This document shows positions 481-62,987 of a stretch of DNA of 64,000 nt, piece after piece. The position numbers and the translations under genes are program-made. The stretch comes from Mya arenaria. Taxonomy: Eukaryota > Mollusca > Bivalvia > Myida > Myidae. The notes beneath the pieces are model-generated. The model searched no databases, was not told the DNA's origin, and saw only the letters and a list, made by a program, of their open reading frames with translations. Numbering within the stretch: position 1 is the stretch's first letter; each line of letters begins with the position of its first letter. The DNA lies in contig NC_069135.1 in the NCBI RefSeq assembly GCF_026914265.1, forward strand, positions 6,341,001 through 6,405,000, read 5' to 3'.

Positions 481-13241
<12,761 letters not shown>

Positions 13242-29487: not shown

Positions 29488-32400
29488 TCACCAGACGAAA
29501 GGAGCCCGCTCCCTTAACATGCGGACGTCAAAGGTATTCCACTCCTTCTGTTTGATGTACAACTCCTGGGTGGTGTCCAGACAAGCCAGTAGAGCTGCTC
29601 CCTTCCAACTAACAATCTCTGGATCCAAATCCTGTAAGAAATTGGAAGAGGTTTAAAAAACCCAATATTTCATGCTCCCTTTCAGCTGAAAACCTCTTGC
29701 TCCATATATATCCCATAAGAAATTGAAAGTGTTTAAAAAAAACAATATCGATCTTATGTTTTCTTTCAACCTCTAAAAAAAAATCTGTGTGAAATATGAT
29801 TGTAAAGATTAAATCATTAAGTTAGGAAGTACCATTACAGCAGTAACATTTCAAAATATTTTAGTTATTGGCATATTTGTTTTTCTTTTAAGTGGCACGC
29901 TTATTCAAAATCAATACATACACATGTATAACAAACATAAATTTTGACTGATTAACCTTGAACTTCTCACTAAATAATGCATTGATGGAAAATATTTATT
30001 ACTGATAACAAGTTTGTAACCCTGTATTTAATAACAGAAAACGCCAAAAATAATAAATGATTGGTGAATGCTAAAATATTTACTGTGGCCTATTATCGTC
30101 TAATGAGGAAGATATACCATGTTTTCTGCACCTTTCTTTCAAATTAAACTAGGTACCCTTCATAAAAACCTTTGTTGTCGACATTTATTCATCCTTTTTG
30201 TATATCAAAACAGTTGTATTAATTGTGGTAAATTTTATTTGGGAGTAAGAGTGCATCTTTAAATATGACTACATGTATCCATAAACTTCCATTTTTGCAA
30301 TTTTAATTAATTTTATTTTATTTTAGCTCCAGGTGACATAAGCTGATAGCTTATAGCATCACTCTCAAGTCAGTTACCTCTGAAAAACAAGTACTGTTAA
30401 AGTTTTTGATAGGCCATAAGAAAATGCACCCAAGAGGGCTTGAACCAACAACCTTTTGGGTGTGAGGGGGACAACACAACCACTAGACCACTCCATCCCC
30501 CTTAATGCGATAATGTGAGCTTCATTAATTTTTCATTTATATAAAGCTTAGTTTTAAATTAATAATTAACGGCTGATCTTCTTTTGGTTCAAAATTAATG
30601 AAGCTTTATTTCCATTTGTTTAGCAGTCATGAATATTAATATCAGAATGGTTCAGCATCATGCAAATTAAAATACCAAATATACTCATATCGCTACACTC
30701 ACCTTAGGTCTTGTGATGACATCCATGGTATCCAGAAGAGGCCGTATGTGTGATGGCATATATTTCCAGATACAGTACTGTAGCCAGGGCTGAGCACTCT
30801 CAAAGTTCAGGCCCCCTCCCACAACAACGATACAGCTGTACATCTTCTTCTTCATCTCATCTGAACCTTAAAAGTGTGAGGAAAAATATGAAATACATGA
30901 CTGTATGCAGAAACAATAGATTTAAACATTGTTTTTCTTAACCATTGAGCACCTGGCTCATGAACCTTTTATCTTCAGATCCCGGATTACCGAACTTTGA
31001 CAGTTGACAAGCGGGCTACCATTTAAAAACATTTGTAGCTTGATGATGTATTTTCAGACACTGAGTGTTAAAACGATTCAAACATCTTTGAATGAATACA
31101 TTTTTGGAACATGTTTGATTAAAATATAGAACATTCAAAACATACCATGTATGAGATTTTAATTTAGGTATCAGAAATGCAAAAAAATATTTTATTTTGA
31201 CACTCGTACATGAACCTAGTAGGTTAGGTATAACTATAATGAAAGTCCCAAAAGTCAATTTCCAAAACAACATATGCATCAAAACAAATTTTTGAACCGC
31301 CATTATAAGTAACAACAGTTTCACATTAAAAACACAAAAAAGACTTCATGAAGTTCATGTACCACATTTCTCTATGCTGTACAATACAGCTTGGTCAATG
31401 CCCATGAGAGGCGGGGCCACAGTCAGCTCCTCCTCCTCTGCCTCCTCCTCCAGCTCTGCCCCCCGACCACGCCCCTTAACACCTTCCGTTGTCGCCATGG
31501 TATCCGGCATGTCATTGGAGTCATCGTCATTCAGGATGTTAAGGGTAGATTCATCCATGGTCAGGTCTGGGCCTTCTCTAGTATTGTCTGCATTGTCTTT
31601 CTTCTTTGACATCTTGGTACCCTTTTTAGAGAGATAGACACTAAATAGACACTAATGGTGAAATTTGAAACAACCAAGTGAATCAGATTAACAGATATCT
31701 ATCATATAGAAATTGTCTAAATGCCAGGATACACTAACATACCCCTACATGCACTCACTGAGTAAACTTATTGATCCTAGATGGCAGATTTACATAACAA
31801 AGTATGTCCTTACAGGTTCCTGTCTGGTCTGGACCTGTTTCAGGTAGAAGTCATCATGGGGATCTGCTGGGTCTCCCTCATTATGTTTCTGAATATGGGT
31901 CAGGTTCTCACCTATAAGGCGTGGACATATTCTATATATTATGACTGTCTAAATACAAAGTGACATCAAAAACATGATGAACAAACTAGAGCATTTGCAC
32001 AACAAGAAGAAAAGCAACAAAATTTAGACAAGAAAAAAATGCTAACTTTTTTAGATATGTTTTGTTGAATAAAAGTTGTAAACTTCACAAGGATTGTCAC
32101 TTTATAACACAAAAATTAAACTAGGCTCGACCTTCTCATTATTTGGTACTGGTTGAGAAGCAGTTTCCGACGGAAAGCAGTTTCCAACAAATCGCTTTTT
32201 CGCGTACCTTCCTTAGATCTTCATAAAGAATGTACTGCAATTCAGCTATATGGTAACTAGGCAATCAAAAGTTGAAATTCTTACCGAGACACGTAAGAAA
32301 CTTTTATTATTATTTAATGTTTAATGTTTATTTTTCATTTTGTACACAAACTTGCACGTGGGGGATCTGCACCCGCAGCGTATTGCGCATGCGTGTGAAC

Positions 32401-35400
32401 CTAATTTGCATATCTATGAATAGCTACACGGTTTTCCTTAATTGACTTATACAAACGACGATCATTGTGTACATATTTGTGAACACTGGTGTCATGCTTG
32501 TTTCACATCCACATTCACTTAAATGTATACAAACACAAGTTTCCATCAGAAATGAATAAAAAAATCATTGATATTCAGTCTCTGCCTGATTTCGAGTATG
32601 AATTGAATGTCGTAAATTTTAAGGTTTAAATTTTTTGTAAATGCTGAAAAATTAAATAACATTGCTCTTATTACAGTCTTATATTTAGTTTATTAAATAA
32701 ACGGATAATAAAAACACACAACAGGCACCTCAAATATGCCCCGCATTCAAATTGTCGGAAATTGCTTCTCATCACAAGCTAATCAGAACAACGTAAGTAC
32801 CCACTTTGCGCCTCTATTAGATACACTACATGTGACGTCACACATGTTAGAAATATATCGACAATAGCAACTTGAGCTGTAGTTATATAAAATGTGAACA
32901 CTTTCAGTAGATATTTAAATATGTATAAATAATTCAATAAAAACGTTTAAAAACTGTCGGAAACTGCTTGTCAACCAGTACATATTTTGTTCTTTGATAG
33001 ATAAAACATTTACCATCAACATGTGGGAGTATTCAATGTTATGATTTAAATAAATAGGTCTTTGATAGTGAATAGATTGGTTAAAAACGATAAAATGTTA
33101 TTATTTTCTTCCTGTGTATTTTAACAAATACCATTTACTGAAAAGTGAGCCGAAATGGCGGAGTTTGTCAATGAGCTTAAATGGTAACTTGGTTGAAAAG
33201 AACCAGATTCTTGATAGCAGGCATTGAACAATAAATCTGGACAAAATCAGCAAGTCAACACTGACAGCCCTGCATTACCCTGGAGTCCGTACATGTCTGG
33301 GAAGTATAAACTGAGGGGTGCCAGGACCAGCTCATCTCCTATCTGTATCAGGTACTTGGTGATGTTCTCCCCTGGACGCTTCAACTGTATAGACTCTTCC
33401 AGGTAGCCGTATCTGTTCTGCAAATAGACAGGGACAAAAAGTAAGTTTAAAAACTTTATCATACATTCTGTGCTAAATTAAAATAGTGAAACTGGAGTAC
33501 CATAAACAAATGGGAACACTATTTTTCTCTAACAGTTTGTTAAGGGGCTTACTCAACAATGATTAAAGTCAGAGTTATGTGACCTGGTACACATATCCAT
33601 ATCATTGTTACTGGTAATGTCATGTTTTTGGAGTCATATGACTATAAGTAGGTAATCATTTCATTGCTAAGGTGGAAGCTTTTGTATGCAAAACTTTGAT
33701 TCATCAAAGTTGAAGGCAATCAACACAGAAATTTATAGAATAATTGGTTTACATGATCAAAACAGCATAATCTATCCTTCAGGTTGTGACACATGAGGGG
33801 GCCATATTCAATAGGAAACTTAGATTGAACTTAAGTTTAAGATTAGAAACTTTAAGTTGACAAATTGGCTGAATGGAATCACTGAGGCATATCTAAGGAT
33901 AAGGATAAGATCAATATTGAATACTGGCCCAGGTGTACGCTGGGGTTGAAATATAGATTGTAATAGAAATATTTTCCACATACATGATCAAAATGGCAAA
34001 GTCTCTCCTTGAGATCCTGACACATGAGAATATCTGGGTAGAAGGCCATGTTCAGGCTAGGGTTGAAGCCTAGAGTGGCTAATAAATCCTTGAACATGCG
34101 TGTAATGTCACTCCCACCAACCTCCATTGTCAGTCTGAAAGAATAAACGAAATTTATGATAACCACAAGGAACACATTGCTCATGTAAAGAAAGAGTAAT
34201 TAAACTTGTACTTTTGGACCTTTTAAGCCAAGTCCTTATATCACAACTTGGCTTAAACTTCACAGGCAGGCAATCATTTTACCATTGCACAATTCATCTC
34301 TTTTGTCCTGGAGTTATTTGTATGGTTATTAATGGACACAACACAAGAGTTATATCCCTTGCTCTGCATTCATGCAAGATATAACGAAGAATGAACATAA
34401 ACTCGACACTTGAAACTTAAACAGCAGGACATACACAAAAAGACCTTGAACTGTGCTAGCTGTAACATGCGCTCCTCAATATGGTGAACATTTGGGGTTA
34501 GTTTTACCAAAATCCTTCAAGCAGTTCAAGAGATATATAATGGACAGCATTTGTGACGGACAGACAGACGGACATCTAGACCAAAAACAATATGTCTACC
34601 CATTTATGAGGGGAAACATAATTTATGAATGAAAATCTTTCATGATGTTAATAATTATGGCAAACATAACATTGTTATATCGTTGCATTTATGCTGCAAG
34701 AATTACAGAATAAAATCAGCTCGCAAATCAAAGCAGCATGATGATTAACTGTCTGACCTTGTATTTCTGTGTGATATGCCATCCTCGATACAAGAGATGC
34801 TAGTTTTCTGGTCCCCAACATCGACGAGACAGCCACTGGGTACGCCTGCACCAAACAATGCACACACTGACTCCTGAATAGAAAAAGTATATATGCTAAA
34901 GTGAGCGGACAAAGAGTGGTTGAAACCAGGAGTGTATGAACTATGACCAACATGTATGTAAGTGAAAATATGTCAATTGCATAACATCCTTTTTTGAAAA
35001 TTAACCACATTTTCAATATTTAATGGATAAACAGTAATATTTTCTTGAAGGGAGTATGAAATTCTAACATCTATAATTATTTAATTATTGTTTTATACAA
35101 AATAATATTGAATAATTTTACTCGTACAATAATGAAAATTTAAAATAAGTGTTTTATGATACACCGTATCCCAATCTTTAACTGCCATTTTAAATTGGTT
35201 TAACACCATCAAGTTGATGTGAGTTATATCCCTTTCTTCAAACGTTAAGAAACCATTTATTATTATTATCTGAAAAGCCAAATTGGGCATGAAATCAACT
35301 TAAGAAAAAAATGTCAAAAGCTTGTTACTGCTTGTAAGACAGGCATTTTTTAGATCAAAATCACAGGAAAAAAACTGCATGTTATAACTTGTCATTTACG

Positions 35401-38400
35401 GTTCCTGATGTACTATTACACTACCATCACATACCTGATGTACTACTACACTACCATCACATGTCTGATGTACTACTACACTACCATCACATACCTGATG
35501 TACTACTACACTACCAACACATACCTGATGCACCACTACACTACCATCACATACCTGATGTACTACTACACTACCATCACATACCTGATGTACTACTACA
35601 CTACCAACACATACCTGATGTACCACTACACTACCAACACATACCTGATGTACTACTACACTATCAACACATACCTGATGTACTACTACACTACCATCAC
35701 ATACCTGATGTACCACTACACTATCAACACATACCTGATGTACCACTACACTACCATCACATACCTGATGCACTACTACACTACCAACACATACCTGATG
35801 TACTACTACACTACCAACACATACCTGATGTACCACTACACTACCAACACATACCTGATGTACCACTACACTACCAACACATACCTGATGTACTACTACA
35901 CTACAAACACATACCTGATGTACTACTACACTACCAACACATACCTGATGTACCACTACACTACCAACACATACCTGATGTACCACTACACTACCATCAC
36001 ATACCTGATGTACCACTACACTACCAACACATACCTGATGTACCACTACACTACCAACACATACCTGATGTACCACTACACTACCATCACATACCTGATG
36101 TACCACTACACTACCAACACATACCTGATGTACTACTACACTATCAACACATAACTGATGTACCACTACACTACCATCACATACTTGATGTACTACTACA
36201 CTACCAACACATACCTGATGTACCACTACACTACCATCACATACCTGATATACCACTACACTACCAACACATACCTGATGTACTACTACACTATCAACAC
36301 ATACCTGATGTACTACTACACTATCAACACATACCTGATGTACTACTACACTATCAACACATACCTGATGTACTACTACACTACCATCACATAACTGATG
36401 AACTGCTACACTACCAACACATACCTTATGCACTACTAACCTACCATCACATACCTGATGTACTACTACACTACCATCACATACCTGATGTACTACTACA
36501 CTACCATCACATACCTGATGTACTACTACACTACCAACACATACCTGATGTACTACTACACTACCATCACATACCTGATGTACTACTACACTACCAACAC
36601 ATACCTGATGTACTACTACACTACCAACACATACCTGATGTACTACTACACTATCAACACATACCTGATGTACTACTACACTACCAACACATACCTGATG
36701 TACTACTACACTATCAACACATACCTGATGTACTACTACACTACCATCACATACCTGATGTACTACTACACTACCAACACATACCTGATGTACTACTACA
36801 CTACCAACACATACCTGATGTACCACTACACTACCATCACATACCTGATGTACTACTACACTACCAACACATACCTGATGTACTACTGCACTACCATCAC
36901 ATACCTGATGTACCACTACACTACCATCACATACCTGATGTACTACTACACTACCAACACATACCTGATGTACTACTACACTACCAACACATACCTGATG
37001 TACCACTACACTACCATCACATACCTGATGTACTACTACACTACCAACACATAACTGATGCACTACTACACTACCATCACATACCTGATGTACCACTACA
37101 CTACCATCACATACCTGATGTACTACTGCACCTCCATCACATACCTGATGTACCACTACACTACCAACACATACCTGATGTACTACTACACTACCATCAC
37201 ATACCTGATGTACTACTGCACCTCCATCACATACCTGATGTACTACTACACTACCATCACATACCTGATGTACTACTACACTACCATCACATACCTGATG
37301 TACCACTACACTACCATCACATACCTGATGTACTACTACACTACCATCACATACCTGATGTACTACTACACTATCAACACATACCTGATGTACTACTACA
37401 CTACCATCACATACCTGATGTACTACTACACTATCAACACATACCTGATGTACTACTACACTATCATCACATACCTGATGTACTACTACACTACCATCAC
37501 ATACCTGATGTACTACTACACTATCAACACATACCTGATGTACCACTACACTACCATCACATACCTGATGTACCACTACACTACCATCACATACCTGATG
37601 TACTACTACACTATCAACACATACCTGATGTACTACTACACTACCATCACATACCTGATGTACTACTACACTACCAACACATACCTGATGTACTACTACA
37701 CTATCAACACATACCTGATGTACTACTACACTATCAACACATACCTGATGTACTACTACACTACCATCACATACCTGATGTACTACTACACTACCATCAC
37801 ATACCTGATGTACTACTACACTACCATCACATACCTGATGCACTACTACACTACCATCACATACCTGATGTACTACTACACTACCATCACATACCTGATG
37901 TACTACTACACTACCAACACATACCTGATGCACTACTACACTATCAACACATACCTGATGCACTACTACACTATCAACACATACCTGATGTACTACTACA
38001 CTCCCATCACATACCTGATGTACTACTACACTACCAACACATAACTGATGCACTACTACACTACCAACACATACCTGATGTACTACTACACTACCATCAC
38101 ATACCTGATGCACTACTACACTACCATCACATACCTGATGTACTACTACACTACCATCACATACCTGATGTACTACTACACTATCAACACATACCTGATG
38201 CACTACTACACTATCAACACATACCTGATGCACTACTACACTATCAACACATACCTGATGTACCACTACACTACCAACACATAACTGATGTACCACTACA
38301 CTACCATCACATACCTGATGCACTACTACACTACCATCACATACCTGATGCACTACTACACTACCATCACATACCTGATGTACTACTACATTACCATCAC

Positions 38401-41400
38401 ATACCTGATTCACCACTTCACTACCATCACATACCTGATGTACCACTTCACTACCATCACATACCTGATGTACTACTACACTACCATCACATACCTGATG
38501 TACTACTACACTATCAACACATACCTGATGTACTACTACACTATCAACACATACCTGATGTACTACTACACTATCAACACATACCTGATGTACTACTACA
38601 CTACCAACACATACCTGATGCACTACTACACTATCAACACATAACTGATGTACTACTACACTATCAACACATACCTGATGCACTACTACACTAACAACAC
38701 ATACCTGATGCACTACTACACTACCAACACATACCTGATGTACTACTACACTACCATCACATACCTGATGTACCACTACACTACCATCACATACCTGATG
38801 TACTACTACACTACCAACACATACCTGATGCACTACTACACTACCAACACATACCTGATGTACCACTACACTACCATCACATACCTGATGTACTACTACA
38901 CTACCATCACATACCTGATGTACCACTACACTACCAACACATACCTGATGTACTACTACACTATCAACACATACCTGATGTACCACTACACTACCAACAC
39001 ATACCTGATGTACTACTACACTACCAACACATACCTGATGTACTACTACACTATCAACACATACCTGATGCACTACTACACTACCAACACATACCTGATG
39101 CACTACTACACTACCATCACATACCTGATGCACTACTACACTATCAACACATACCTGATGTACTACTACACTACCATCACATACCTGATGTACTATTACA
39201 CTACCATCACATACCTGATGCACTACTACACTATCAACACATACCTGATGTACTACTACACTACCATCACATACCTGATGTACTACTACACTACCATCAC
39301 ATACCTGATGCACTACTACACTATCAACACATACCTGATGTACTACTACACTACCATCACATACCTGATGTACTACTACACTATCAACACATACCTGATG
39401 CACTACTACACTACCAACACATACCTGATGTACCACTACACTACCATCACATACCTGATGTACTACTACACTATCAACACATACCTGATGTACTACTACA
39501 CTATCAACACATACCTGATGTACTACTACACTATCAACACATACCTGATGTACTACTACACTATCAACACATACCTGATGTACTACTACACTATCAACAC
39601 ATACCTGATGTACTACTACACTATCAACACATACCTGATGTACTACTACACTATCAACACATACCTGATGTACTACTACACTACCAACACATACCTGATG
39701 TACTACTACACTACCAACACATACCTGATGTACTACTACACTACCATCACATACCTGATGTACTACTACACTACCAACACATAACTGATGCACTACTACA
39801 CTACCATCACATACCTGATGCACTACTACACTACCAACACATACCTGATGTACTACTACACTACCATCACATACCTGATGCACTACTACACTACCATCAC
39901 ATACCTGATGTACTACTACACTACCAACACATACCTGATGTACTACTACACTACCAACACATACCTGATGTACTACTACACTACCAACACATACCTGATG
40001 TACTACTACACTATCAACACATACCTGATGTACTACTACACTATCAACACATACCTGATGTACCACTACACTATCATCACATACCTGATGTACTACTACA
40101 CTATCAAAACATACCTGATGTACTACTACACTACCATCACATACCTGATGTACTACTACACTACCAACACATACCTGATGTACTACTACACTATCAACAC
40201 ATACCTGATGTACCACTACACTATCAACACATACCTGATGTACCACTACACTACCATCACATACCTGATGTACTACTACACTATCAACACATACCTGATG
40301 TACTACTACACTATCAACACATACCTGATGTACTACTACACTATCAACACATACCTGATGCACTACTACACTACCATCACATACCTGATGTACTACTACA
40401 CTATCAACACATACCTGATGTACTACTACACTACCATCACATACCTGATGTACTACTACACTATCAACACATACCTGATGTACTACTACACTATCAACAC
40501 ATACCTGATGTACTACTACACTATCAACACATACCTGATGCACTACTACACTACCATCACATACCTGATGTACTACTACATTACCATCACATACCTGATT
40601 CACCACTTCACTACCATCACATACCTGATGTACCACTTCACTACCATCACATACCTGATGTACTACTACACTACCATCACATACCTGATTTACTACTACA
40701 CTACCATCACATACCTGATGTACTACTACACTACCAACACATACCTGATGTACTACTACACTACCAACACATACCTGATGTACTACTACACTACCAACAC
40801 ATAACTGATGTACTACTACACTATCAACACATAACTGATGCACTACTACACTACCATCACATACCTGATGTACTACTACACTACCATCACATACCTGATG
40901 TACTACTACACTACCATCACATACCTGATGTACTACTACACTACCATCACATACCTGATGTACTACTACACTATCAACACATACCTGATGCACTACTACA
41001 CTATCAACACATACCTGATGTACTACTACACTATCAACACATACCTGATGTACTACTACACTACCAACACATACCTGATGCACTACTACACTACCAACAC
41101 ATACCTGATGTACTACTACACTACCAACACATACCTGATGTACTACTACACTACCATCACATACCTGATGCACTACTACACTACCAACACATTCCTGATG
41201 CACTACTACACTACCAACACATACCTGATGTACCACTACACTACCATCACATACCTGATGTACCACTACACTACCAACACATACCTGATGTACCACTACA
41301 CTACCATCACATACCTGATGTACCACTACACTACCATCACATACCTGATGTACTACTACACTACCAACACATACCTGATGTACTACTACACTACCAACAC

Positions 41401-44400
41401 ATACCTGATGTACTACTACACTACCAACACATACCTGATGTACTACTACACTACCATCACATACCTGATGTACTACTACACTACCAACACATACCTGATG
41501 TACTACTACACTACCAACACATACCTGATGTACTACTACACTACCAACACATACCTGATGTACTACTACACTACCAACACATACCTGATGTACTACTACA
41601 CTACCAACACATACCTGATGTACTACTACACTACCAACACATACCTGATGTACTACTACACTACCAACACATACCTGATGTACTACTACACTACCAACAC
41701 ATACCTGATGTACTACTACACTACCAACACATACCTGATGTACTACTACACTACCAACACATACCTGATGAACTACTACACTACCAACACATACCTGATG
41801 TACTACTACACTACCATCACATACCTGATGCACTACTACACTACCAACACATACCTGATGTACCACTACACTACCATCACATACCTGATGTACCACTACA
41901 CTACCAACACATACCTGATGTACCACTACACTACCATCACATACCTGATGTACCACTACACTACCAACACATACCTGATGTACCACTACACTACCAACAC
42001 ATACCTGATGTACCACTACACTACCATCACATACCTGATGCACTACTACACTATCATCACATACCTGATGTACCACTACACTACCATCACATACCTGATG
42101 TACTACTACACTACCATCACATACCTGATGTACCACTACACTATCAACACATACCTGATGTACCACTACACTACCAACACATACCTGATGTACCACTACA
42201 CTACCAACACATACCTGATGTACTACTACACTACCAACACATACCTGATGTACTACTACACTACCAACACATACCTGATGTACTACTACACTACCAACAC
42301 ATACCTGATGTACTACTACACTACCAACACATACCTGATGTACCACTACACTACCAACACATACCTGATGTACCACTACACTACCAACACATACCTGATG
42401 TACCACTACACTACCATCACATACCTGATGTACCACTACACTACCAACACATACCTGATGTACTACTACACTACCATCACATACCTGATGTACTACTACA
42501 CTATCAACACATACCTGATGTACCACTACACTACCATCACATACCTGATGTACCACTACACTACCATCACATACCTGATGTACCACTACACTACCAACAC
42601 ATACCTGATGTACTACTACACTATCAACACATACCTGATGTACCACTACACTACCAACACATACCTGATGTACCACTACACTACCATCACATACCTGATG
42701 TACCACTACACTACCATCACATACCTGATGTACTACTACACTACCAACACATACCTGATGTACTACTACACTACCAACACATACCTGATGTACCACTACA
42801 CTACCAACACATACCTGATGTACCACTACACTACCATCACATACCTGATGTACCACTACACTACCATCACATACCTGATGTACCACTACACTACCAACAC
42901 ATACCTGATGTACCACTACACTACCATCACATACCTGATGTACCACTACACTACCATCAGCACATACCTGATGCACTACTACACTACCATCACATACCTG
43001 ATGCACTACTACACTACCATCACATACCTGATGTACTACTACACTACCATCACATACCTGATGTACTACTACACTACCATCACATACCTGATGTACTACT
43101 ACACTACCATCACATACCTGATGTACTACTACACTACCATCACATACCTGATGCACTACTACACTATCAACACATACCTGATGTACTACTACACTACCAT
43201 CACATACCTGATGTACTACTACACTACCATCACATACCTGATGTACTACTACACTACCAACACATACCTGATGTACTACTACACTACCAACACATACCTG
43301 ATGTACTACTACACTACCAACACATACCTAGTGTACTACTACACTACCAACACATACCTGATGTACTACTACACTATCAACACATACCTGATGTACCACT
43401 ACACTACCAACACATACCTGATGCACTACTACACCTCCATCACATACCTGATGTACCACTACACTACCAACACATACCTGATGTACTACTACACTACCAT
43501 CACATACTTGATGTACTACTACACTACCAACACATACCTGATGTACTACTACACTACCATCACATACCTGATGTACTACTACACTACCATCACATACCTG
43601 ATGTACTACTACACTACCATCACATACCTGATGTACTACTACACTACCAACACATACCTGATGTACTACTACACTACCATCACATACCTGATGCACTACT
43701 ACACTACCAACACATACCTGATGTACTACTACACTACCAACACATACCTGATGTACTACTACACTACCATCACATACCTGATGTACTACTACACTACCAA
43801 CACATACCTGATGTACTACTACACTACCAACACATACCTGATGTACTACTACACTACCAACACATAACTGATGCACTACTACACTACCATCACATACCTG
43901 ATGTACTACTACACTACCATCACATACCTGATGTACTACTACACTACCATCACATACCTGATGCACTACTACACTACCATCACATACCTGATGCACTACT
44001 ACACTACCAACACATACCTGATGCACTACTACACTACCAACACATACCTGATGCACTACTACACTACCAACACATACCTGATGTACTACTACACTACCAA
44101 CACATACCTGATGTACTACTACACTACCAACACATACCTGATGTACTACTACACTACCATCACATACCTGATGCACTACTACACTACCAACACATACCTG
44201 ATGCACTACTACACTACCAACACATACCTGATGTACTACTACACTACCATCACATACCTGATGTACTACTACACTACCAACACATACCTGATGCACTACT
44301 ACACTACCAACACATACCTGATGCACTACTACACTACCAACACATACCTGATGCACTACTACACTACCATCACATACCTGATGCACTACTACACTACCAT

Positions 44401-47400
44401 CACATACCTGATGTACTACTACACTACCAACACATACCTGATGTACTACTACACTACCATCACATACCTGATGTACTACTACACTACCATCACATACCTG
44501 ATGTACTACTACACTACCATCACATACCTGATGTACTACTACACTACCATCACATACCTGATGTACTGCTACACTACCATCACATACCTGATGTACTGCT
44601 ACACTACCATCACATACCTGATGCACTACTACACTACCAACACATACCTGATGTACTACTACACTACCAACACATACCTGATGCACTACTACACTACCAA
44701 CACATACCTGATGTACCACTACACTACCATCACATACCTGATGTACTACTACACTACCAACACATAACTGATGCACTACTACACTACCATCACATACCTG
44801 ATGCACTACTACACTACCATCACATACCTGATGCACTACTACACTACTATCACATACCTGATGTACCACTAAACTACCATCACATACCTGATGTACTACT
44901 ACACTACCAACACATACCTGATGTACTACTACACTATCAACACATACCTGATGTACTACTACACTACCATCACATACCTGATGTACTACTACACTATCAA
45001 CACATACCTGATGTACCACTACACTACCATCACATACCTGATGTACTACTACACTATCAACACATACCTGATGCACTACTACACTACCATCACATACCTG
45101 ATGTACTACTACACTATCAACACATACCTGATGTACCACTACACTACCATCACATACCTGATGTACTACTACACTATCAACACATACCTGATGTACCACT
45201 ACACTACCAACACATACCTGATGTACTACTACACTACCATCACATACCTGATGTACTACTACACTACCAACACATACCTGATGTACTACTACACTACCAA
45301 CACATAACTGATGCACTACTACACTACCATCACATAACTGATGAACTGCTACACTACCATCACATAACTGATGTACTACTACACTACCATCACATACCTG
45401 ATGTACTACTACACTACCATCACATAACTGATGAACTGCTACACTACCATCACATACCTGATGTACTACTACACTACCATCACATACCTGATGTACTACT
45501 ACACTACCATCACATACCTGATGTACTACTACACTACCATCACATACCTGATGTACTACTACACTATCAACACATACCTGATGTACTACTACACTACCAT
45601 CACATACCTGATGTACTATTACACTACCATCACATACCTGATGTACTACTACACTACCATCACATACCTGATGTACTATTACACTATCAACACATACCTG
45701 ATGTACTACTACACTACCATCACATACCTGATGTACTACTACACTATCAACACATACCTGATGTACGACTACACTATCAACACATACCTGATGTACGACT
45801 ACACTACCATCACATACCTGATGTACTACTACACTACCATCACATACCTGATGTACCACTACACTACCATCACATACCTGATGTACCACTACACTACCAA
45901 CACATACCTGATGTACCACTACACTACCAACACATACCTGATGTACCACTACACTACCATCACATACCTGATGTACCACTACACTACCAACACATACCTG
46001 ATGTACCACTACACTACCAACACATACCTGATGTACTACTACACTACCATCACATACCTGATGTACTACTACACTACCATCACATACCTGATGTACTACT
46101 ACACTATCAACACATACCTGATGTACTACTACACTACCATCACATACCTGATGTACCACTACACTACCATCACATACCTGATGTACCACTACACTACCAT
46201 CACATACCTGATGTACTACTACACTACCATCACATACCTGATGTACTACTACACTACCATCACATACCTGATGTACTACTACACTACCAACACATACCTG
46301 ATGTACTACTACACTACCAACACATACCTGATGTACCACTACACTACCAACACATACCTGATGTACTACTACACTACCAACACATACCTGATGTACTACT
46401 ACACTACCATCACATACCTGATGTACTACTACACTACCATCACATACCTGATGTACCACTACACTACCATCACATACCTGATGTACCACTACACTATCAA
46501 CACATACCTGATGTACTACTACACTACCATCACATACCTGATGTACTACTACACTACCAACACATACCTGATGTACTACTACACTACCAACACATACCTG
46601 ATGTACTACTACACTACCAACACATACCTGATGTACTACTACACTATCAACACATACCTGATGTACTACTACACTATCAACACATACCTGATGTACTACT
46701 ACACTACCATCACATACCTGATGTACTACTACACTACCATCACATACCTGATGTACCACTACACTACCATCACATAACTGATGTACTACTACACTACCAT
46801 CACATACCTGATGTACTACTACACTACCATCACATAACTGATGTACTACTACACTACCATCACATACCTGATGTACTACTACACTATCAACACATACCTG
46901 ATGCACTACTACACTACCAACACATACCTGATGTACCACTACACTACCATCACATACCTGATGTACTACTACACTACCATCACATAACTGATGAACTGCT
47001 ACACTACCATCACATAACTGATGAACTGCTACACTACCATCACATAACTGATGAACTACTACACTATCAACACATACCTGATGTACTACTACACTACCAA
47101 CACATAACTGATGAACTACTACACTATCAACACATACCTGATGTACTACTACACTACCAACACATAACTGATGAACTGCTACACTACCATCACATACCTG
47201 ATGTACTACTACACTACCATCACATAACTGATGAACTGCTACACTACCATCACATACCTGATGTACTACTACACTACCATCACATACCTGATGTACTACT
47301 ACACTACCATCACATACCTGATGTACTACTACACTACCATCACATACCTGATGTACTACTACACTATCAACACATACCTGATGTACTACTACACTACCAT

Positions 47401-50400
47401 CACATACCTGATGTACTATTACACTACCATCACATACCTGATGTACTACTACACTACCAACACATAACTGATGAACTGCTACACTACCATCACATACCTG
47501 ATGTACCACTACACTACCATCACATACCTGATGTACTACTACACTACCATCACATACCTGATGTACTACTACACTACCATCACATACCTGATGTACTACT
47601 ACACTACCAACACATACCTGATGTACTACTACACTATCAACACATACCTGATGTACTACTACACTACCATCACATACCTGATGTACTACTACACTACCAA
47701 CACATACCTGATGTACTACTACACTATCAACACATACCTGATGTACTACTACACTACCAACACATACCTGATGTACTACTACACTACCAACACATACCTG
47801 ATGTACTACTACACTATCAACACATACCTGATGTACTACTACACTATCAACACATACCTGATGTACCACTACACTACCATCACATACCTGATGTACTACT
47901 ACACTACCATCACATACCTGATGTACCACTACACTACCATCACATACCTGATGTACCACTACACTACCATCACATACCTGATGCACTACTACACTACCAT
48001 CACATACCTGATGAACTGCTACACTACCATCACATAACTGATGAACTGCTACACTACCATCACATACCTGATGCACTACTACACTACCATCACATAACTG
48101 ATGCACTACTACACTACCATCACATAACTGATGAACTGCTACACTACCATCACATAACTGATGAACTGCTACACTACCATCACATAACTGATGCACTGCT
48201 ACACTACCATCACATAACTGATGAACTACTACACTACCATCACATAACTGATGCACTGCTACACTACCATCACATAACTGATGAACTGCTACACTACCAT
48301 CACATAACTGATGAACTGCTACACTACCATCACATAACTGATGAACTGCTACACTACCATCACATAACTGATGAACTGCTACACTACCATCACATAACTG
48401 ATGAACTGCTACACTACCATCACATAACTGATGAACTGCTACACTACCATCACATAACTGATGAACTGCTACACTACCATCACATAACTGATGAACTGCT
48501 ACACTACCATCACATAACTGATGAACTGCTACACTACCATCACATAACTGATGAACTGCTACACTACCATCACATAACTGATGAACTACTACACTACCAT
48601 CACATACCTGATGTACTACTACACTACCATCACATACCTGATGTACTACTACACTACCATCACATACCTGATGTACTACTACACTACCATCACATAACTG
48701 ATGAACTACTACACTACCATCACATAACTGATGAACTGCTACACTACCATCACATAACTGATGAACTGCTACACTACCATCACATAACTGATGAACTGCT
48801 ACACTACCATCACATAACTGATGAACTGCTACACTACCATCACATAACTGATGAACTACTACACTACCATCACATAACTGATGAACTGCTACACTACCAT
48901 CACATAACTGATGAACTGCTACACTACCATCACATAACTGATGAACTGCTACACTACCATCACATAACTGATGAACTGCTACACTACCATCACATAACTG
49001 ATGAACTACTACACTACCATCACATACCTGATGTACTACTACACTACCATCACATACCTGATGTACCACTACACTACCATCACATACCTGATGTACCACT
49101 ACACTACCATCACATACCTGATGTACTGCTACACTACCAACACATAACTGATGAACTGCTACACTACCATCACATACCTGATGTACTACTACACTACCAT
49201 CACATACCTGATGTACTACTACACTACCATCACATACCTGATGTACTACTACACTATCAACACATACCTGATATACTACTACACTACCAACACATACCTG
49301 ATGTACTACTACACTATCAACACATAACTGATGTACTACTACACTACCATCACATAACTGATGCACTACTACACTACCATCACATACCTGATGTACTACT
49401 ACACTACCATCACATAACTGATGAACTGCTACACTACCATCACATACCTGATGTACTACTACACTACCATCACATACCTGATGTACTACTACACTACCAT
49501 CACATACCTGATGTAGTACTACACTATCAACACATACCTGATGTACTACTACACTACCAACACATACCTGATGTACCACTACACTACCATCACATACCTG
49601 ATGTACTACTACACTACCATCACATAACTGATGAACTGCTACACTACCATCACATACCTGATGTACTACTACACTACCATCACATACCTGATGTACTACT
49701 ACACTACCATCACATACCTGATGTACTACTACACTATCAACACATACCTGATATACTACTACACTACCAACACATACCTGATGTACTACTACACTACCAT
49801 CACATAACTGATGTACTACTACACTATCAACACATACCTGATGAACTGCTACACTACCATCACATAACTGATGCACTACTACACTACCATCACATACCTG
49901 ATGTACTACTACACTACCATCACATAACTGATGAACTGCTACACTACCATCACATACCTGATGTACTACTACACTACCATCACATACCTGATGTAGTACT
50001 ACACTATCAACACATACCTGATGTACTACTACACTACCAACACATACCTGATGTACTACTACACTACCATCACATAACTGATGAACTGCTACACTACCAT
50101 CACATAACTGATGCACTACTACACTACCATCACATACCTGATGTACTACTACACTACCATCACATACCTGATGTACTACTACACTACCATCACATACCTG
50201 ATGTACTACTACACTACCATCACATACCTGATGTACTACTACACTACCATCACATACCTGATGTAGTACTACACTATCAACACATACCTGATGTACTACT
50301 ACACTACCATCACATACCTGATGTACCACTACACTACCATCACATACCTGATGTACTACTACACTACCATCACATACCTGATGTACTACTACACTACCAT

Positions 50401-53400
50401 CACATACCTGATGTACTACTACACTACCAACACATACCTGATGTACTACTACACTATCAACACATACCTGATGTACTACTACACTACCATCACATACCTG
50501 ATGTACTACTACACTACCAACACATACCTGATGTACTACTACACTATCAACACATACCTGATGTACTACTACACTACCAACACATACCTGATGTACTACT
50601 ACACTACCAACACATACCTGATGTACTACTACACTATCAACACATACCTGATGTACTACTACACTATCAACACATACCTGATGTACCACTACACTACCAT
50701 CACATACCTGATGTACTACTACACTACCATCACATACCTGATGTACCACTACACTACCATCACATACCTGATGTACCACTACACTACCATCACATACCTG
50801 ATGCACTACTACACTACCATCACATACCTGATGAACTGCTACACTACCATCACATAACTGATGAACTGCTACACTACCATCACATACCTGATGCACTACT
50901 ACACTACCATCACATAACTGATGCACTACTACACTACCATCACATAACTGATGAACTGCTACACTACCATCACATAACTGATGAACTGCTACACTACCAT
51001 CACATAACTGATGCACTGCTACACTACCATCACATAACTGATGAACTACTACACTACCATCACATAACTGATGAACTGCTACACTACCATCACATAACTG
51101 ATGAACTGCTACACTACCATCACATAACTGATGAACTGCTACACTACCATCACATAACTGATGAACTGCTACACTACCATCACATAACTGATGAACTGCT
51201 ACACTACCATCACATAACTGATGAACTGCTACACTACCATCACATAACTGATGAACTGCTACACTACCATCACATAACTGATGAACTGCTACACTACCAT
51301 CACATAACTGATGAACTGCTACACTACCATCACATAACTGATGTACCACTACACTACCATCACATACCTGATGTACCACTACACTACCATCACATAACTG
51401 ATGAACTACTACACTACCATCACATACCTGATGTACTACTACACTACCATCACATACCTGATGTACCACTACACTACCATCACATACCTGATGTACCACT
51501 ACACTACCATCACATACCTGATGTACTGCTACACTACCAACACATAACTGATGAACTGCTACACTACCATCACATACCTGATGTACTACTACACTACCAT
51601 CACATACCTGATGAACTGCTACACTACCATCACATACCTGATGTACTACTACACTACCATCACATACCTGATGTACTACTACACTACCATCACATACCTG
51701 ATGTACTACTACACTATCAACACATACCTGATATACTACTACACTACCAACACATACCTGATGTACTACTACACTACCATCACATAACTGATGTACTACT
51801 ACACTATCAACACATACCTGATGAACTGCTACACTACCATCACATAACTGATGCACTACTACACTACCATCACATACCTGATGTACTACTACACTACCAT
51901 CACATAACTGATGAACTGCTACACTACCATCACATACCTGATGTACTACTACACTACCATCACATACCTGATGTACTACTACACTACCATCACATACCTG
52001 ATGTAGTACTACACTATCAACACATACCTGATGTACTACTACACTACCAACACATACCTGATGTACTACTACACTACCATCACATAACTGATGAACTGCT
52101 ACACTACCATCACATAACTGATGCACTACTACACTACCATCACATACCTGATGTACTACTACACTACCATCACATACCTGATGTACTACTACACTACCAT
52201 CACATACCTGATGTACTACTACACTACCATCACATACCTGATGTACTACTACACTACCATCACATACCTGATGTACTACTACACTACCATCACATAACTG
52301 ATGAACTGCTACACTACCATCACATAACTGATGTACTACTACACTACCATCACATACCTGATGTACTACTACACTACCATCACACAACTGATGAACTGCT
52401 ACACTATCATCACATAACTGATGTACTACTACACTACCATCACATACCTGATGTACTACTACACTACCATCACATAACTGATGAACTGCTACACTACCAT
52501 CACATACCTGATGAACTGCTACACTACCATCACATAACTGATGAACTGCTACACTACCATCACTTACCTGGTGCACTACTACAGCTCCAAAGCCAAGGCC
52601 ATTGAGCATCATGTTCATCATCTCACGAACATGAATGTGGATGAACACATCTGGGACCAGCAGTACTGCCTTGTAGAGCTGAACAAACAAGGAGGGAGGT
52701 TTTAAGTAAAAGTGAGAACTTTTGCAAGAAATAACAGTATGCATGCCATAGATATACAAAGTAAAGAAGATGTTTAAAATAATTTGGGGAGTAAACAAAA
52801 TTGAAACACTACTTGTACGTGGAGATGTACATATAAGCTACTTTTTGAGCCTTATGTCATCCAGGTAAGTGTATGTTGGAGGTGAATGTATGGGCCACTT
52901 TTTGAGCACTATGTCTATCTGGTATGTGAACATTGGAGGTTGCGTATGGGCAACTTTTTGAGCACTATGTCATCCAGGTTTGTGTACGTTGGAGGTGTAC
53001 GTATAGGCTACTTTTTTTAGCACTATGTCATCCATGTTTGTGTACATTGGAGGTGTATGTATGGGCTACTTTTTGAGCACTATGTTACTTAGATAAGTGT
53101 ACATTGGAGGTGTACTTTTGGGCTGCTTTTTGAACACTATGTCATCCAGGTTTGTGTTCGTTAATGGTGTATGTATGGGCTACTTTTTGAGCACTATGTC
53201 ATCCAGGTTTGTATTCGTTAATGGTGTATGTATGGGCTACTTTTTCAGCACCTTGTCACTCAGGTAAGTATACATTGGAGGTGCACATATAGCTATTTTT
53301 TGAGACATTTTTCATCCAGATATGAGTATATATTGTAAAAGTTTGAAATGACATCCACAATATCAAGATGAATTGAGATTAATTAAAATATCTTTAAATA

Positions 53401-56400
53401 CAAGTTTAAACAGACTGGAAACCAGATGGTCCCAAAATCAACATATACTGTAAAGCATGGAATTGCCATTCAAGGCAGTATGAGGACGATACTACATCCT
53501 TTTACATGAATAAAACAATAACAAGAGCTAGTGATGTTCCGATGATCGATTATAATCGAAAATCGATTGGTTGGGCCTGAAATCGGCGACAATCGATAGT
53601 ATTTAGTTATAATCGATTATCGAAAAAGATTTTTTTTTATATTAGTTAGTGTTCAGATGTTATCTTTAACAAAATGGCTGATGAAAGCCACAATGAGCAA
53701 GAAAATGAACTATTTTTTATACAACAACACTTAATAACTTCAATCATAGACATAAGGTATATGCATATAATACTGTACATGAATAAAACTACAACTCAGG
53801 TACTATCTAGTATTTTAAAAACCGATTGTACCAGGGCTTTTTCACTTTCTTTGCTTGGGGCCGAAATTAGGCTACTTCACAATTGAGAAAAATTGAATAT
53901 TTTCACAATTTCCAGATATTTTTTTCACAATTCCCAGATATTTTTCCCAACAAGGAAGATCTTACTTCAAAAATTTACAATAAAAATTTGTTCTGTTTTA
54001 GCAAATTATTCTTTCGTAATCTTTTAAGTTAACAACAGAAGAATGCTGTATAATTTAAATGTTATTCGAGGACCAATTAGTCCATATATTGTTATCAATT
54101 CTTTCCCTCGATTTAGAATCAACTCTATGAAGAATAAAACTGATCTCTCTCCCTCTTTTGTCATTGCGTCATGTTAAAAAAGCGAAGTCAAAGACATGAT
54201 TTCTCCCCAAATAAGATCTACATGTGTATCAATTGGAAGTCCATACATTTAAGACTTTTCAAGCTTGACCCTGTGGAGTGTTTGTACACAATTCATATTA
54301 AAAAGGTCATAATTGAAAAATATTCAGCTAGAAGTAGACTCACATACATGCAAAATATGAGCCTGTTTTTTGTAACATAAGTTTCATATGGATACCTTGA
54401 CCCATTATATTATATGCAAGATAGAGTTATCTAACTTGATTAATTAAGAAGGTTGGGTGGTTGAGTACCATTGCATAAAGTATAAATGCAATACATCAAG
54501 TAGTTGCTTAACCTATGTGTGCTTACATGCTAAACCATAACCAGAATTTCTAAGTCAAATAATAAAGGCCCATTATTTGCATTTTATTCAAATAAGTGTT
54601 ATCTAACTTCATTAATTTAGTAGGTTACATAGTTAGGAACAAATATCCGAAGTTTCAATGCAATAAAGATACTGAGATAATGACTTACATGCAAAACCTT
54701 AACCAAGGTGTGACGCCAGGGTGAGTAGTATAGCTCTTCTTCGAATAGTGGAGCTAAAATATGAGGAAAATAATAGCTCCTTTTACATGAATAAAAGAAT
54801 CAAAAATAAGCGTTTTAGCAACTCGCTGTCATTTTAAGCAGAGTTTCGAAAGTTTCCATCAATCAATTTCAGCATTTATGATGACAGATCTGTGTTTCGC
54901 AGCAGTTTTCTGCAATGTCTTTGAAAGATGCATGTGTTTTAAGCGATGTGATACATTGGTAACTAGGTAAGTTACAATGCATTGTTCAATTTAATGTAAG
55001 TTTTTGACATTTTCTTTTTTTCTTGCACTTGTATCATCTGGTGTCTAGTCCCTTTAAATTGAATTTCATTAACAATTTATAAATCAACCACAACTTGTAA
55101 GTGTATGTTAAACTAGACCTCTCTTATATCTCTTAGCCTTATTTTAAACTTTCAATTTAGAGCTATCACTAAATGAGATGAATTACCCCAAAAAGCCGAA
55201 TCAGTAAAATATTCAGAAATCCCACATAAAAATGGCAATGCTGTGGATACGGTTATGGTTCATGCTTCCTCTCATTGTGCTTAATCATTGTATAAAGTTT
55301 AATAAAATTCTACCAGTAGTTTCCAAGCTCTAGACAAGAATAAGTTACAAAGGGCAATAACTCTGTAATTAGCTGAAATAGTTATGCTTGTACTCTGCTT
55401 GGCATATTGTTAGTGTGTGTATACTGTGTGATAAATTACGTCATATATGCTACTTCAGAAGGCAACATTTTGCTTAAAGTAAAGACTTAAATCAAAGATA
55501 ACTTTTCTTTTACTACACCATTTTAATTATTTTTTTCATTTTTCAGTCATTTTAGACTGTGCTATGTTTCATTTAAAATGGTGAATAAATAGGAAAGTTA
55601 TCTTTATTTTAAGTCTTCATTCAAATAAAAAATATTGCCTTCCGACGTAGCATTTATGACCCAATTTGTCACGTGCTATACACACACTGATTGTGCTTAT
55701 CATTGTTTGAAGTTTAATTAAATTCAAACAAGTGTTTTTCAAGTTATGCTTTGGACAAGGAAATTTCAAGGGACAGACCACAGAGCCACCACAGCTTAAC
55801 TCCAAAATACCCGCTAAGGGGCATGATAAGGTCTGCCCAAGCTAATTAAAGATCAAGTTTACTTGGTCACACAAGGAAGCTTGAAGAGTCAAGTTAACTT
55901 AGTCACACAAGGAAGAAATTGCCCATACCATTAGACAATTATCATTCTCTCCCAAAATCTATAAAAAGACAATAAACTGATCTTAAGTGGTTTAACAATT
56001 GTTTCGGAAACTTTGTGGACATAATGTCAAAAGGTACCAAAGCACAGAGTGGTTTGAAACAGGCATTTAAGTCGTACAATTTCTTCTCCAAACAATTAGC
56101 AAACCCTTCATATCCAAAGATAATGATGCCATTAAGTTTACTTTGAGATCTTTGAGAGGGATATCGAGCATGTCCTGCATAACAGTTCCCCAGATGTCCT
56201 GGAGGTCAGCCATTATTGAGGTCAGTGTGCCAGATGGGCCGGGATGTACGTTCAGGTGACCCCGTGCCATTGGCCACTGGATGTTGTATCCAGTCCCTGG
56301 CTGTACGTATAGGGCCTGCAAAATAGATGCACCTCACTCAAAGACCTTGCTACAATCTAAACCTCAGCACACATTATTGTCTTTTGACATTTAATTGCCT

Positions 56401-59400
56401 TGTCTGCATTTACCAGTATTTCTAACTTGCTTTGAAGCTTAACTAACCTTGCCATTTGAGGGAGGAAAAAATACATCCCCAAAATATTTCAAATTCTTTG
56501 TAAATCATTAGAAATCATGCAACAATTAAATTAGTACATTAGGGGCAAGTAAATCTGCAATTTAAAAGTTAAACTATTATTAACATAATAGGAAATAAGA
56601 AAATGTGAAAGAGTTAAAAGTACCTCTTCTCCAACAACAAACTCCGGTTTATGGTCTGTGTTTGTCCAGCGTAATGGACACGGCACATCAGTACGCTCCC
56701 CCTTCACGCGTACATTATGGCTGTATAGCTGTTATAAAGGACAGTAATAGTGAGATTATCATTCAAATTCTATTTAATTTATTTATTTAAGATCATAGTG
56801 TACAATAGTATATTTCTTCTCATATATCTTCTCAGCATATGGTGAAAATATTGTTTATTAAAATAATGAATTTACTGAAGACAGTAAAAACTGTTGATTA
56901 TCATGGATATTACATATATATTTCAACCAGAGCTCCAGATATTTTTCAGGATAAATAGTAATGTACCCAATGACCATTCTGGTCAAAAGCTACTGTACCC
57001 CCTGACATTCAGCTTTAAAGAGAATTCTAAACTCTTAAGGGGTAACATTAAAGGGTATTTATGTTTTCTTCAATACATGTACATGCAATTTATTTTTTTA
57101 ACTGTCAATACCGACAATAGTAATATATCAAGAAAATATCTTATAAAATAGCAAGAACGACAGAAATTGCTACAATTTACTTTAAGCTGTTATTGGTAAC
57201 ATTTGAGACAAGATAATCGCAAATGGAATACTGATATTTATTTCCAACATTCATAGCATTTCTTCATGAATTGAAAAAGGGCGTGATATTTAAAGTTCTC
57301 TAAAAGGCATGACCGTTACAAAACACTATTTACCCTTTCCTAAAACAGCACCCTAGAACATCTGACATTTTATCTTCTACAAGCTCACCTGGCAACTGTA
57401 TGTAATACATAATATTTCTTAAACTGAGTGTGCAATCAAACCCTGCACCCAGACAATGATGTCAAACAAGTCAGTTATCAGGGTTTTTTTCCTGGTATTT
57501 CAGGAATATGATCTTAACCTTTATAACTTTAAAAAACAACAACAAGAGCTGTCACAGAGACAGCGCGCTCGACTATTCCGCCACTTTTCAGTGTAAGGAT
57601 TGAAAAGTTTTTGCGAAACATGCATAGATCACATTTAAAATTAGATTAGAATGATGCCATTATTTGAATTTAATGCAAACTAGAGTTACCTTACTATATT
57701 GAAGTAGATTGTATAAAGTCTCAATGCAATACATCAATTAGCATATCAAGTAAATGTGGTTACATGCAAAACCTTAAACAGAATTGTTAAAGTCAAATAA
57801 TTAAGGGCAATTATTTTGAATTAAATGCAAACTAGAGTTATCTAACTAGGTTAATTAAGTAGTTTGGATGGTTGAGTACCATTGTATAAAGTCTCAATGC
57901 AATACATCAAGTAGTTGCTGAGATATTTACCTATGTGTGCTAACATGCAAAACCTTAACCAGAATTTCTAAGTCAAATAATAAAGGCCCATTATTTGCAT
58001 TATATTGAAATAAGTGTTATATAACTTCATTAATTTAGTAGGTTACATAGTTGGAAATACATATCCAAAGTTTCAATGCAATACATGATGCATTTACTGA
58101 GATAATGACTTAAAAGTGCTTACATGAAAAACCTTAACCAAGGTGTGAAGCCGACGCCCGTTGAGTAGTATAGCTCTCCTTATTCTTCAAATAGTCGAGC
58201 TAAAAATAATTTTAATTGGAAGCCTTAGATAAGGCAGTACGGCTCACTTTGGGAGTCAAAGGGCAGCACTGCACAAAGAAGTGATCAATAGGCCTGGAAG
58301 AATAACTTATTCAGGTGTTTGCTGACAATTACTGTATACATGGCACCAAGGCTATGGCAACAACTTCATTGTTTTGCTATATAGACGATATAAACAGACA
58401 GCTATCAAAGACCACAGTTACTACCTGTCTGACAGAGGATGGTGGTCGAACCTCACCAGAATCCATTGGTTTCATCTCCACAGCATTGTTGGCTGCTTTC
58501 AGCCCTCTGTCCTTCTGGTGCTTATGCCCCTGATGCTTTAAACAGAATTTCAACATGAGAAACAATATGTTTTTAATAAGTGAAAATAAATCATTATGTA
58601 ATATAAAGATATTTGATTAAAAAAATACAAAAGAGGGGTGTTTTTTTTCAGTGTTTTGGGAATGTCTTAAACTCTTGGAATTGAGAATTTTTGTGTCATT
58701 TCTCACATAATTGAGAATTTTTTATAATTACTTAAGCAAAATGAATATAATGAAATACTCTTTTAAACCATTTTTTTTTTTTTTTGGGGGGGGGGGGGAG
58801 TGGGGTCTTTTATAACTGAACATCAATAAATTTAATTAATATACCATATTTTTATTGGGTATTTTGGGGGGACAAAACATTCTTTTTGGCATTGGGAAAA
58901 AAATAAATATCAGCTTTATACATGGCCCAAAAGATCTGAAAGTTAAACAAGCATGAAAATTTGTTCCTTGGTAATCTATAATTTTACATCTGTTTTTATT
59001 CTTATAAGATTCAATCAATCATGAACTTCAAATCTATATTTATAAACTGTAGATTAAATTTAGTAGAATCTCTTTCAAGATTTTTTTAGCCTTAAGTCAA
59101 TATCACATATGTTTGACTCATGTTAACACTGATAAACAAAGGTAATTTTATGTTTGGCTAGGTTTTAAAATTGCAAACATGTGTAAATATATGGCCAAAT
59201 ATTGCAAATTTTAAAATGGCGAAATCAAACACAAATAGCCTATATACGATACCTATACACTTGACATACGTGCAATCCTTCCAGTTGTTACCTGTCTTTC
59301 TTTCCTAAGCATCCATGTTGATTTCTCCTCTGTTGCATTAGGTTTTAGCCTTCTGGCTATGCAGTGGTGAACAGTGACTGGGAAAGGATCTGATGCTCTT

Positions 59401-62149: not shown

Positions 62150-62964
62150 TATGAATAATTGATATGACGTCTTTTGCCATTGTCTCAGATATTTGTATAT
62201 AGAAATGTAATTAGTTATTACATTAGTGTGAACCTACTGACAATAATGAGCATTGAGGGAACTTATTAGTATTGTTTCAATAATGCATTCATCAGTTCAG
62301 GGTTTGACATTTAGGCCTGACCAAATGACATTCACTAGTTGAAATATGGTCTAGTCTAACTATGTCTGAGGCAAGCTAGCTGGATAGGTCATGTTCTGAA
62401 TCGGTCAAAGTTTGCAGAAATAATGTCTTTAAACTAATAAAAGCACAAAATATCTGTGAAAATTGTAGGCTTTTCTAAAAACCTGTTGCAAATGTACTAT
62501 ATTTAGTACCAATCTTAACACATGTTAACTGATTGATTTGCATGTAAAACAGTAAATGCTTACTGAAATTTGTGAATTAAAAGTAATGGTTCTGTTAATC
62601 TAAGTATGACTTTGTATGTACAGGTATTTTATTTCTTTAACACTTTTTTAATGACTGTTGCATTATGTGTTTAAGGTTTTTTCAAGGCTTCAGCAGTGTT
62701 CAGAAAGTTGGTTAAAACACTCAAACGAGCTTATTTTGTATTTGTTACAATTTTGCCAACTCCAATTAATCTTATCTTTTTATTTTATCTTTAAAGCGGC
62801 TTTTACTGATCATAGTGTTTTTCTTTTGAAAACTTCTGTATTAATTCTGATCAAACAATCAAACAGTTTGTAAACACACCAATTTAAAAACATGCTTTGA
62901 TGTCCTTTTTCCTTGAATATTTACATGTAGATCCAGTATCTAATAACCTTTCTTTGGACTTTCA
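62150..62964 (+). other. APEH upstream region
   Basis: Unique AT-rich sequence ending in a splice acceptor (GGACTTTCAG at 62955-62964). The APEH start codon therefore lies in a second exon, and the leader exon and promoter should be in this region or to its left. None can be placed by eye. Confidence 0.35.
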
Positions 62965-62987
62965 GAAAAATCTTGATTCTCAGCAAA

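Follow-up and report, generated by a model that had tools for sequence, protein, structure and literature searches.

A very large minisatellite at the exon 6/intron 6 border of ACTR8 in Mya arenaria, probably a tolerated array of the mirage type

Intron 6 of ACTR8 in the bivalve Mya arenaria is filled almost completely by a minisatellite which adjoins exon 6 and repeats the exon-intron border in units of 30 nt. It is located in a stretch of 64,000 nucleotides (assembly GCF_026914265.1, contig NC_069135.1, positions 6,341,001 to 6,405,000), referred to here as the window, whose own coordinates are used throughout. Minisatellite-like tandem duplications of exon-intron boundaries were described from globin genes of amphioxus and called "mirages" (PMC3087553). 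Judged by the features checked in its sequence, the ACTR8 locus is such a mirage. The array is in register with the exon-intron boundary and overlaps it (15 nt of exon plus the donor, 13 of these 15 nt being identical to the unit), its units carry a splice signal (GT at the donor position in 478 of 572 units, the true donor included, and the exact string CAG/GTATGT, with the slash marking the splice position, in 473), and it bears the marks of concerted evolution with a distinct edge unit, the only one with GTAAGT. We consider it likely that the array is a very large mirage, a minisatellite that originated from the exon 6/intron 6 border of ACTR8, has no evolved job and is tolerated by its host.

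The gene lies on the minus strand of the window. Three queries of joined exon peptides matched the PDB chain 4fo0_A, Actin-related protein 8 (ARP8), which we take to be the human protein, with E-values of 2.3e-22, 3.8e-72, and 3e-49, in agreement with the first-pass annotation, which had named ACTR8 as host. Upstream of the exon bordering the array four coding exons were located and no first exon was identified in the window, so that its number, 6, is the one given by that annotation. The boundaries of exon 6 were read directly (acceptor TTTGTTTGTTCAG/CTC, donor CAG/GTAAGT), and the exon 6/exon 7 junction, VVVHQ/ESVCA, aligns to VVHQESVCA of ARP8 in 4fo0_A. The layout of the locus is as follows:

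29491..59459 (outer bounds approximate), minus strand: coding exons of ACTR8, from the VIHPGS exon (~59.4 kb) to the C-terminal APFVW (~29.5 kb)
52568..52678, minus strand: exon 6 (111 nt; both ends in phase 0), translated as LYKAVLLVPDV...GAVVVHQ, with a match to ARP8
52567-34874, minus strand: intron 6, 17,694 nt
52562..52567, minus strand: true donor GTAAGT of exon 6
35405..52567, minus strand: intronic array, 572 units with the consensus GTATGTGATGGTAGTGTAGTAGTACATCAG, directly adjoining exon 6
34874..35404, minus strand: remainder of intron 6 outside the array, 531 nt, with the acceptor ending TTTTTCTATTCAG
34758..34873, minus strand: exon 7, encoding ESVCALFGAGV...GISHRNT(R), donor read as AAG/GTCAGA

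When units are cut in phase from the exon 6 border, 571 of the 572 have a length of 30 nt and a single one measures 33 nt:

42935..42967, minus strand: sole length variant, a unit with a 3-nt insertion that keeps the frame

Together they make up 17,163 of the 17,694 nt of intron 6 (97%). Tandem Repeats Finder (TRF) reports the same array at 35404-52583, with 572.6 copies of 30 nt, 95% matches and 0% indels. The units begin with GTATGT in 477 cases and with TTATGT in 91, and the hexamers GTAAGT, TTGTGT, GAATGT, and ACATGT occur once each; a plain string count of CAG/GTATGT again yielded 473. The first-pass annotation had counted about 572 copies over some 17 kb, roughly 480 of them with CAG/GTATGT read in the direction in which the gene is transcribed, and these figures and the shared minus-strand orientation of gene and units were reproduced. 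Over most of 35405-52567 the GC skew is about -0.66 on the plus strand, the sense strand containing 7% C, and this strong strand asymmetry could favour R-loops. Known RNA families were not found at gathering score within the window, and the exact consensus unit has no match in viral and prokaryote collections, as expected for an animal locus.

The origin of the array can be read from the exon side, where the register of the repeat extends 15 nt into the coding sequence:

52568..52582, minus strand: founder half-unit inside exon 6, GTAGTAGTGCACCAG (VVVHQ), identical to the unit consensus at 13 of 15 positions

The next 15 exon bases upstream agree with the consensus at only 6 of 15 positions. 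Among the 93,680 positions outside the array on both strands none reaches 13 of 15, one reaches 12 and ten reach 11, and the full unit, in any rotation, is matched outside the array at no more than 20 of 30 positions. The half-unit in the exon codes for part of a conserved stretch of protein (VVHQES in ARP8, 4fo0_A), and exon 6 therefore appears to be older than the array. These comparisons support the end of exon 6 plus its donor as the putative founder, as the first-pass annotation had proposed.

Differences between units lie mostly at six positions (1, 8, 11, 20, 21, and 24), and at the remaining 24 positions 47 of 13,704 bases differ (571 of 572 units, with the 33-nt unit excluded). Neighbouring units are closer to each other than distant ones, the mean Hamming distance being 1.47 at lag 1 vs. 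2.57 at lag 400, and one block has an exact second copy:

50318..51067, minus strand: block of 25 units; its second copy, at 48247-47498, lies 94 units (2,820 bp) away

Three 300-bp windows at this block (900 bp in total) are 99.7-100% identical at a distance of 2,820 bp, whereas elsewhere in the proximal array the in-register identity at this distance is 89-97%, the ordinary level for the array. Variants are also unevenly distributed, T occupying position 8 in 24% of the 208 exon-proximal units vs. 54% of the others, and position 1 in 37% vs. 4%. The greater similarity of neighbouring units and the exact block are what unequal exchange together with local duplication would produce. We infer that the minisatellite was founded when the border of exon 6 and intron 6 was duplicated in tandem, and that unequal exchange and local re-duplication then expanded it to 17.2 kb.

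Each transcription of ACTR8 would yield the array as intron RNA, in which the spliceosome is expected to pick the first donor, as it abuts exon 6 and shows the best pairing with U1 small nuclear RNA (U1). Duplex energies, calculated with the 5′ end of U1, are -13.2 kcal/mol for the true donor (CAG/GTAAGT), -9.2 kcal/mol for an array donor (CAG/GTATGT) or -10.4 kcal/mol with T at position 8, and -2.5 kcal/mol for the broken form. The unit immediately after the true donor is itself broken (TTATGT), and GTATGT also follows exon 8 of ACTR8. The earlier statement that the array donors match U1 is supported by these energies, which are in favour of array donors that are competent as 5′ splice sites by sequence. 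Its description of all donors as equivalent is not, considering that GTAAGT is unique to the true donor, which is 3-4 kcal/mol stronger. The array donors would thus act as weaker decoys, and the probable reason for the tolerance of the array is that the true donor is both the nearest and the strongest. Splicing between copies within the array was considered as well and rejected; the sense strand of the array contains no pyrimidine run longer than 4, which makes its copies poor acceptors.

A further point, absent from the first-pass annotation and new here, is that the array is open in the reading frame of the exon. Because exon 6 has a phase-0 end and a unit measures exactly ten codons, translation of the array in the exon frame gives repeated VCDGSVVVHQ; this frame stays open for 3,079 codons beyond the true donor, is closed once, and is then open to the end of the array:

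43328..43330, minus strand: single in-frame stop of the array, CAG to TAG

Counted from exon 6, 224 GT decoys precede the stop at 43330 and 253 follow it. The decoys closest to the exon, at 52507, 52447, 52357, and 52267, would add 60, 120, 210, and 300 nt. Given the ten-codon unit and the phase-0 exon end, use of any of the 224 decoys before the stop would lengthen the exon by 30n nt and insert 10n residues in frame, so that frameshift and nonsense-mediated decay would be avoided; the protein itself would probably suffer from a long insert within the actin fold. The absence of a frameshift upon decoy use, owing to units of 3n nt at a phase-0 exon, may explain why the array survived. No sign of codon constraint was seen in the array, although its 33 distinct site variants are a weak test against mild constraint: they comprise nine synonymous changes, 23 nonsynonymous ones and one stop, and the ratio 9:23 is compatible with the neutral expectation of 20:68 (p 0.53) among the 90 possible single changes (20:68:2). 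Neither was avoidance of indels seen, with one indel per 33 substitutions vs. 10 per 123 in four control arrays elsewhere in the window, which were automatically cut and have 2 to 12 copies (Fisher p 0.46). The number of stops expected is 0.73, with one observed. In line with this lack of signs of selection on codons or indels, the frame is open by construction.

Some observations weigh against a neutral mirage kept quiet by its first donor. The distal end of the array, CAG/GAACCG, offers no second reading of the founder, and because the array stops there the intron side of the founder is readable on the exon side only. Eight other donors of ACTR8, placed by the end of the exon peptide, have U1 duplex energies of -8.5, -9.5, -5.7, -3.2, -5.4, -2.9, -6.0 (placement less sure), and -13.3 kcal/mol, two ambiguous exon ends, for which sites of -4.8 and -4.1 kcal/mol are candidates, being excluded. 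With -9.2 kcal/mol an array donor is stronger than six of these eight, so that silence of the decoys is not guaranteed by their weakness. RNA structure does not seem to hide them either, and this candidate was rejected: over the 9 nt of the donor the predicted local accessibility amounts to 0.0099 at the true site, compared with a median of 0.0070 for the 477 decoys, 187 of which (120-nt window; 224 with 80 nt and 375 with 200 nt) are predicted to be more accessible than the true donor. One 300-nt piece of the array folds better than all of 200 shuffles (z -5.0). Finally, broken donors are not spread evenly:

46328..52567, minus strand: exon-proximal 208 units, with 77 of all 94 broken donors

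GT is retained in 131 of these 208 units vs. 347 of the 364 beyond, where 17 donors are broken; the cut at unit 208 was set after the bins had been seen. A circular-shift test, by which the clustering is preserved, gave 17 of 571 shifts as extreme. This excess near the exon could be a trace of selection, and a purely neutral account predicts none. Nevertheless, the broken-donor variant travels with C20 and T24, 56 of 66 units with C20 preceding a unit that begins with T, and hitch-hiking therefore explains the exon-proximal donor loss equally well. Hitch-hiking may account for the loss, as may selection acting on decoys near the exon.

Frame and donor strength would allow an array that is used rather than tolerated, with several of its donors active and a series of ACTR8 mRNAs carrying 10n residues between VVVHQ and ESVC. 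All 477 GT decoys, of which the nearest lies at +60 nt (20 residues) and 224 come before the only stop, follow a phase-0 exon end in steps of 30 nt or ten codons and pair with U1 better than six of the eight other donors placed in the gene, and in human IFI6 two downstream repeat units serve as donors, giving three mRNAs (PMC4526556). We nevertheless regard such a generator of isoforms as rather unlikely, considering that the true donor is the nearest and the stronger one, that the unit next to it is broken, that known mirages are reported to splice normally (PMC3087553, PMC3902484), that the insert would presumably sit in the actin core and that codon constraint shows no sign. A more specific form of this account, in which the in-phase decoys act as a live ladder of splice sites giving ACTR8 proteins with 20, 40, 70, and 100 or more extra residues in the actin fold, with an output set by the allele-specific length of the array and by which proximal donors are broken, appears unlikely. 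Still less is to be said for a giant VCDGSVVVHQ domain in the ACTR8 protein of this species. An open frame of 3,169 codons does extend from intron 5 across exon 6 and on into the array, with 2,643 more codons after one stop; this stop lies mid-array, the openness is expected by construction, the variants fit the neutral ratio, and VVHQ is joined directly to ES in ARP8 (4fo0_A), all of which makes a coding repeat extremely improbable.

A role of the array as U1-binding RNA, be it in nuclear retention, in the protection of the long intron from early polyadenylation or in the titration of U1, would profit from 478 GT donors within one transcript. However, AATAAA and ATTAAA are absent from the 17,163-nt array, so that nothing there needs protection from these two signals. 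The U1 pool of human cells comprises about a million molecules, and a single locus would concern a small fraction of it. Moreover, 94 of the 572 sites are broken and upkeep shows no sign. We therefore give such a role a very small chance; neither for it nor for the splice-site reservoir, both suggested by the first-pass annotation, was positive evidence found at the locus. It also seems quite improbable that the array is an assembly error, i.e., that the real array is shorter, its length being overstated or its arrangement wrong. Such arrays are difficult to assemble, one mirage was apparently aberrantly assembled in a draft genome (PMC3087553), and the exact repeat of 25 units 2,820 bp away could also come from misassembly. 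On the other hand, the window contains no N, the variants at positions 8 and 1 are unevenly spread along the array, and identity around the exact block drops to the ordinary level, as real exchange predicts. The tolerated mirage remains the preferred explanation.

Human IFI6 (6-16, G1P3) reportedly carries a minisatellite of multiple splice donors, attributed to Turri et al. in 1995, with a 12-bp unit in about 26 copies. Both this repeat and the ACTR8 array of 572 units of 30 nt are tandem repeats at a donor; units of the former serve as donors, whereas those of the latter are donor-competent by sequence. The amphioxus mirages are alike in that their tandem units span an exon-intron boundary and carry splice signals. 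As described, their units measure 10-160 bp, AG/GT signals are present in many repeats, their length is unstable and reverse transcription PCR (RT-PCR) suggests that regular splicing is undisturbed (PMC3087553). The globin genes with mirages named there are BflGb6, with 6 and 3 units, and BflGb9, which compares with 572 units of 30 nt and 97% of a 17.7-kb intron in ACTR8. The same paper cites Canestro et al. 2002 for a mirage in Adh3, and troponin C is given as a further mirage gene, with similar repeats in PGBD5 (PMC3902484). Tandem AGGT duplications have been reviewed, among them 24-bp repeats of fission yeast in which introns span two or four copies (PMC4974935). Intron gain of this kind (Rogers model; ATP2A1; fission yeast) likewise involves tandem copies with AG/GT (PMC4974935), but it duplicates exonic segments and creates a new intron, whereas the ACTR8 unit is half exon and half intron and its copies are poor acceptors. 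Variable human tandem repeats at exon-intron boundaries are said to be able to form novel introns (PMC2812944). An Alu-derived ACTR8 transcript in a monkey is the subject of another paper (PMC7275561). In the open-licence literature, screened mostly by title and the start of the abstract, no donor-seeded array near a size of 572 units was recognised. The earlier statement that no such array had been described thus holds for the size but not for the kind, given the amphioxus mirages and IFI6.

The ACTR8 array is an outsized example of a rare and already described kind of repeat and would widen the range of known mirages to far greater array sizes. It places hundreds of near-identical, U1-competent decoys in phase behind one true donor of a conserved chromatin gene, and since ordinary RNA reads can score each decoy, it offers a natural experiment on the parts played by exon definition, donor strength and distance when one 5′ splice site is selected. 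It also suggests how a unit length of 3n combined with exon phase could render such arrays survivable.

Exon 6 is flanked by arrays on both sides, as intron 5 contains a tandem array of 57 bp (52837-53328, 8.6 copies, 78% matches) that lies about 160 bp upstream of the acceptor of exon 6. Its plus-strand copies contain words such as CCAGGTAAGT. Kinship with the 30-nt unit is not claimed: an equal match was found in 19 of 300 shuffles on the plus strand and 267 of 300 on the minus strand.

On the same strand as ACTR8, three open frames at 2392-9257 match the TIP49 (RUVBL) P-loop domain, and a 181-bp tandem array (4415-6747, 12.9 copies, 94%) lies between the TIP49 exons. RUVBL (TIP49) and ACTR8 are both subunits of the INO80 complex, and their proximity may be due to conserved synteny or to chance. 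On the opposite, plus strand, open frames at 15661-25810 resemble a long coiled-coil protein, presumably similar to CCDC146; the two of these frames that were scanned gave no Pfam match above cut-off. Another plus-strand open frame, at 62931-63218 (MEKAVTLYRDLVQYASTSYIGISKPDSAGS...), has no Pfam match and looks like a coding exon of a plus-strand gene. Two more repeat families, of ~162 bp and ~179 bp, occur at 60406-61761 and at 57751-58140 and 63558-63917, respectively, and by eye the 179-bp consensus units of the latter two places look mutually reverse-complementary.

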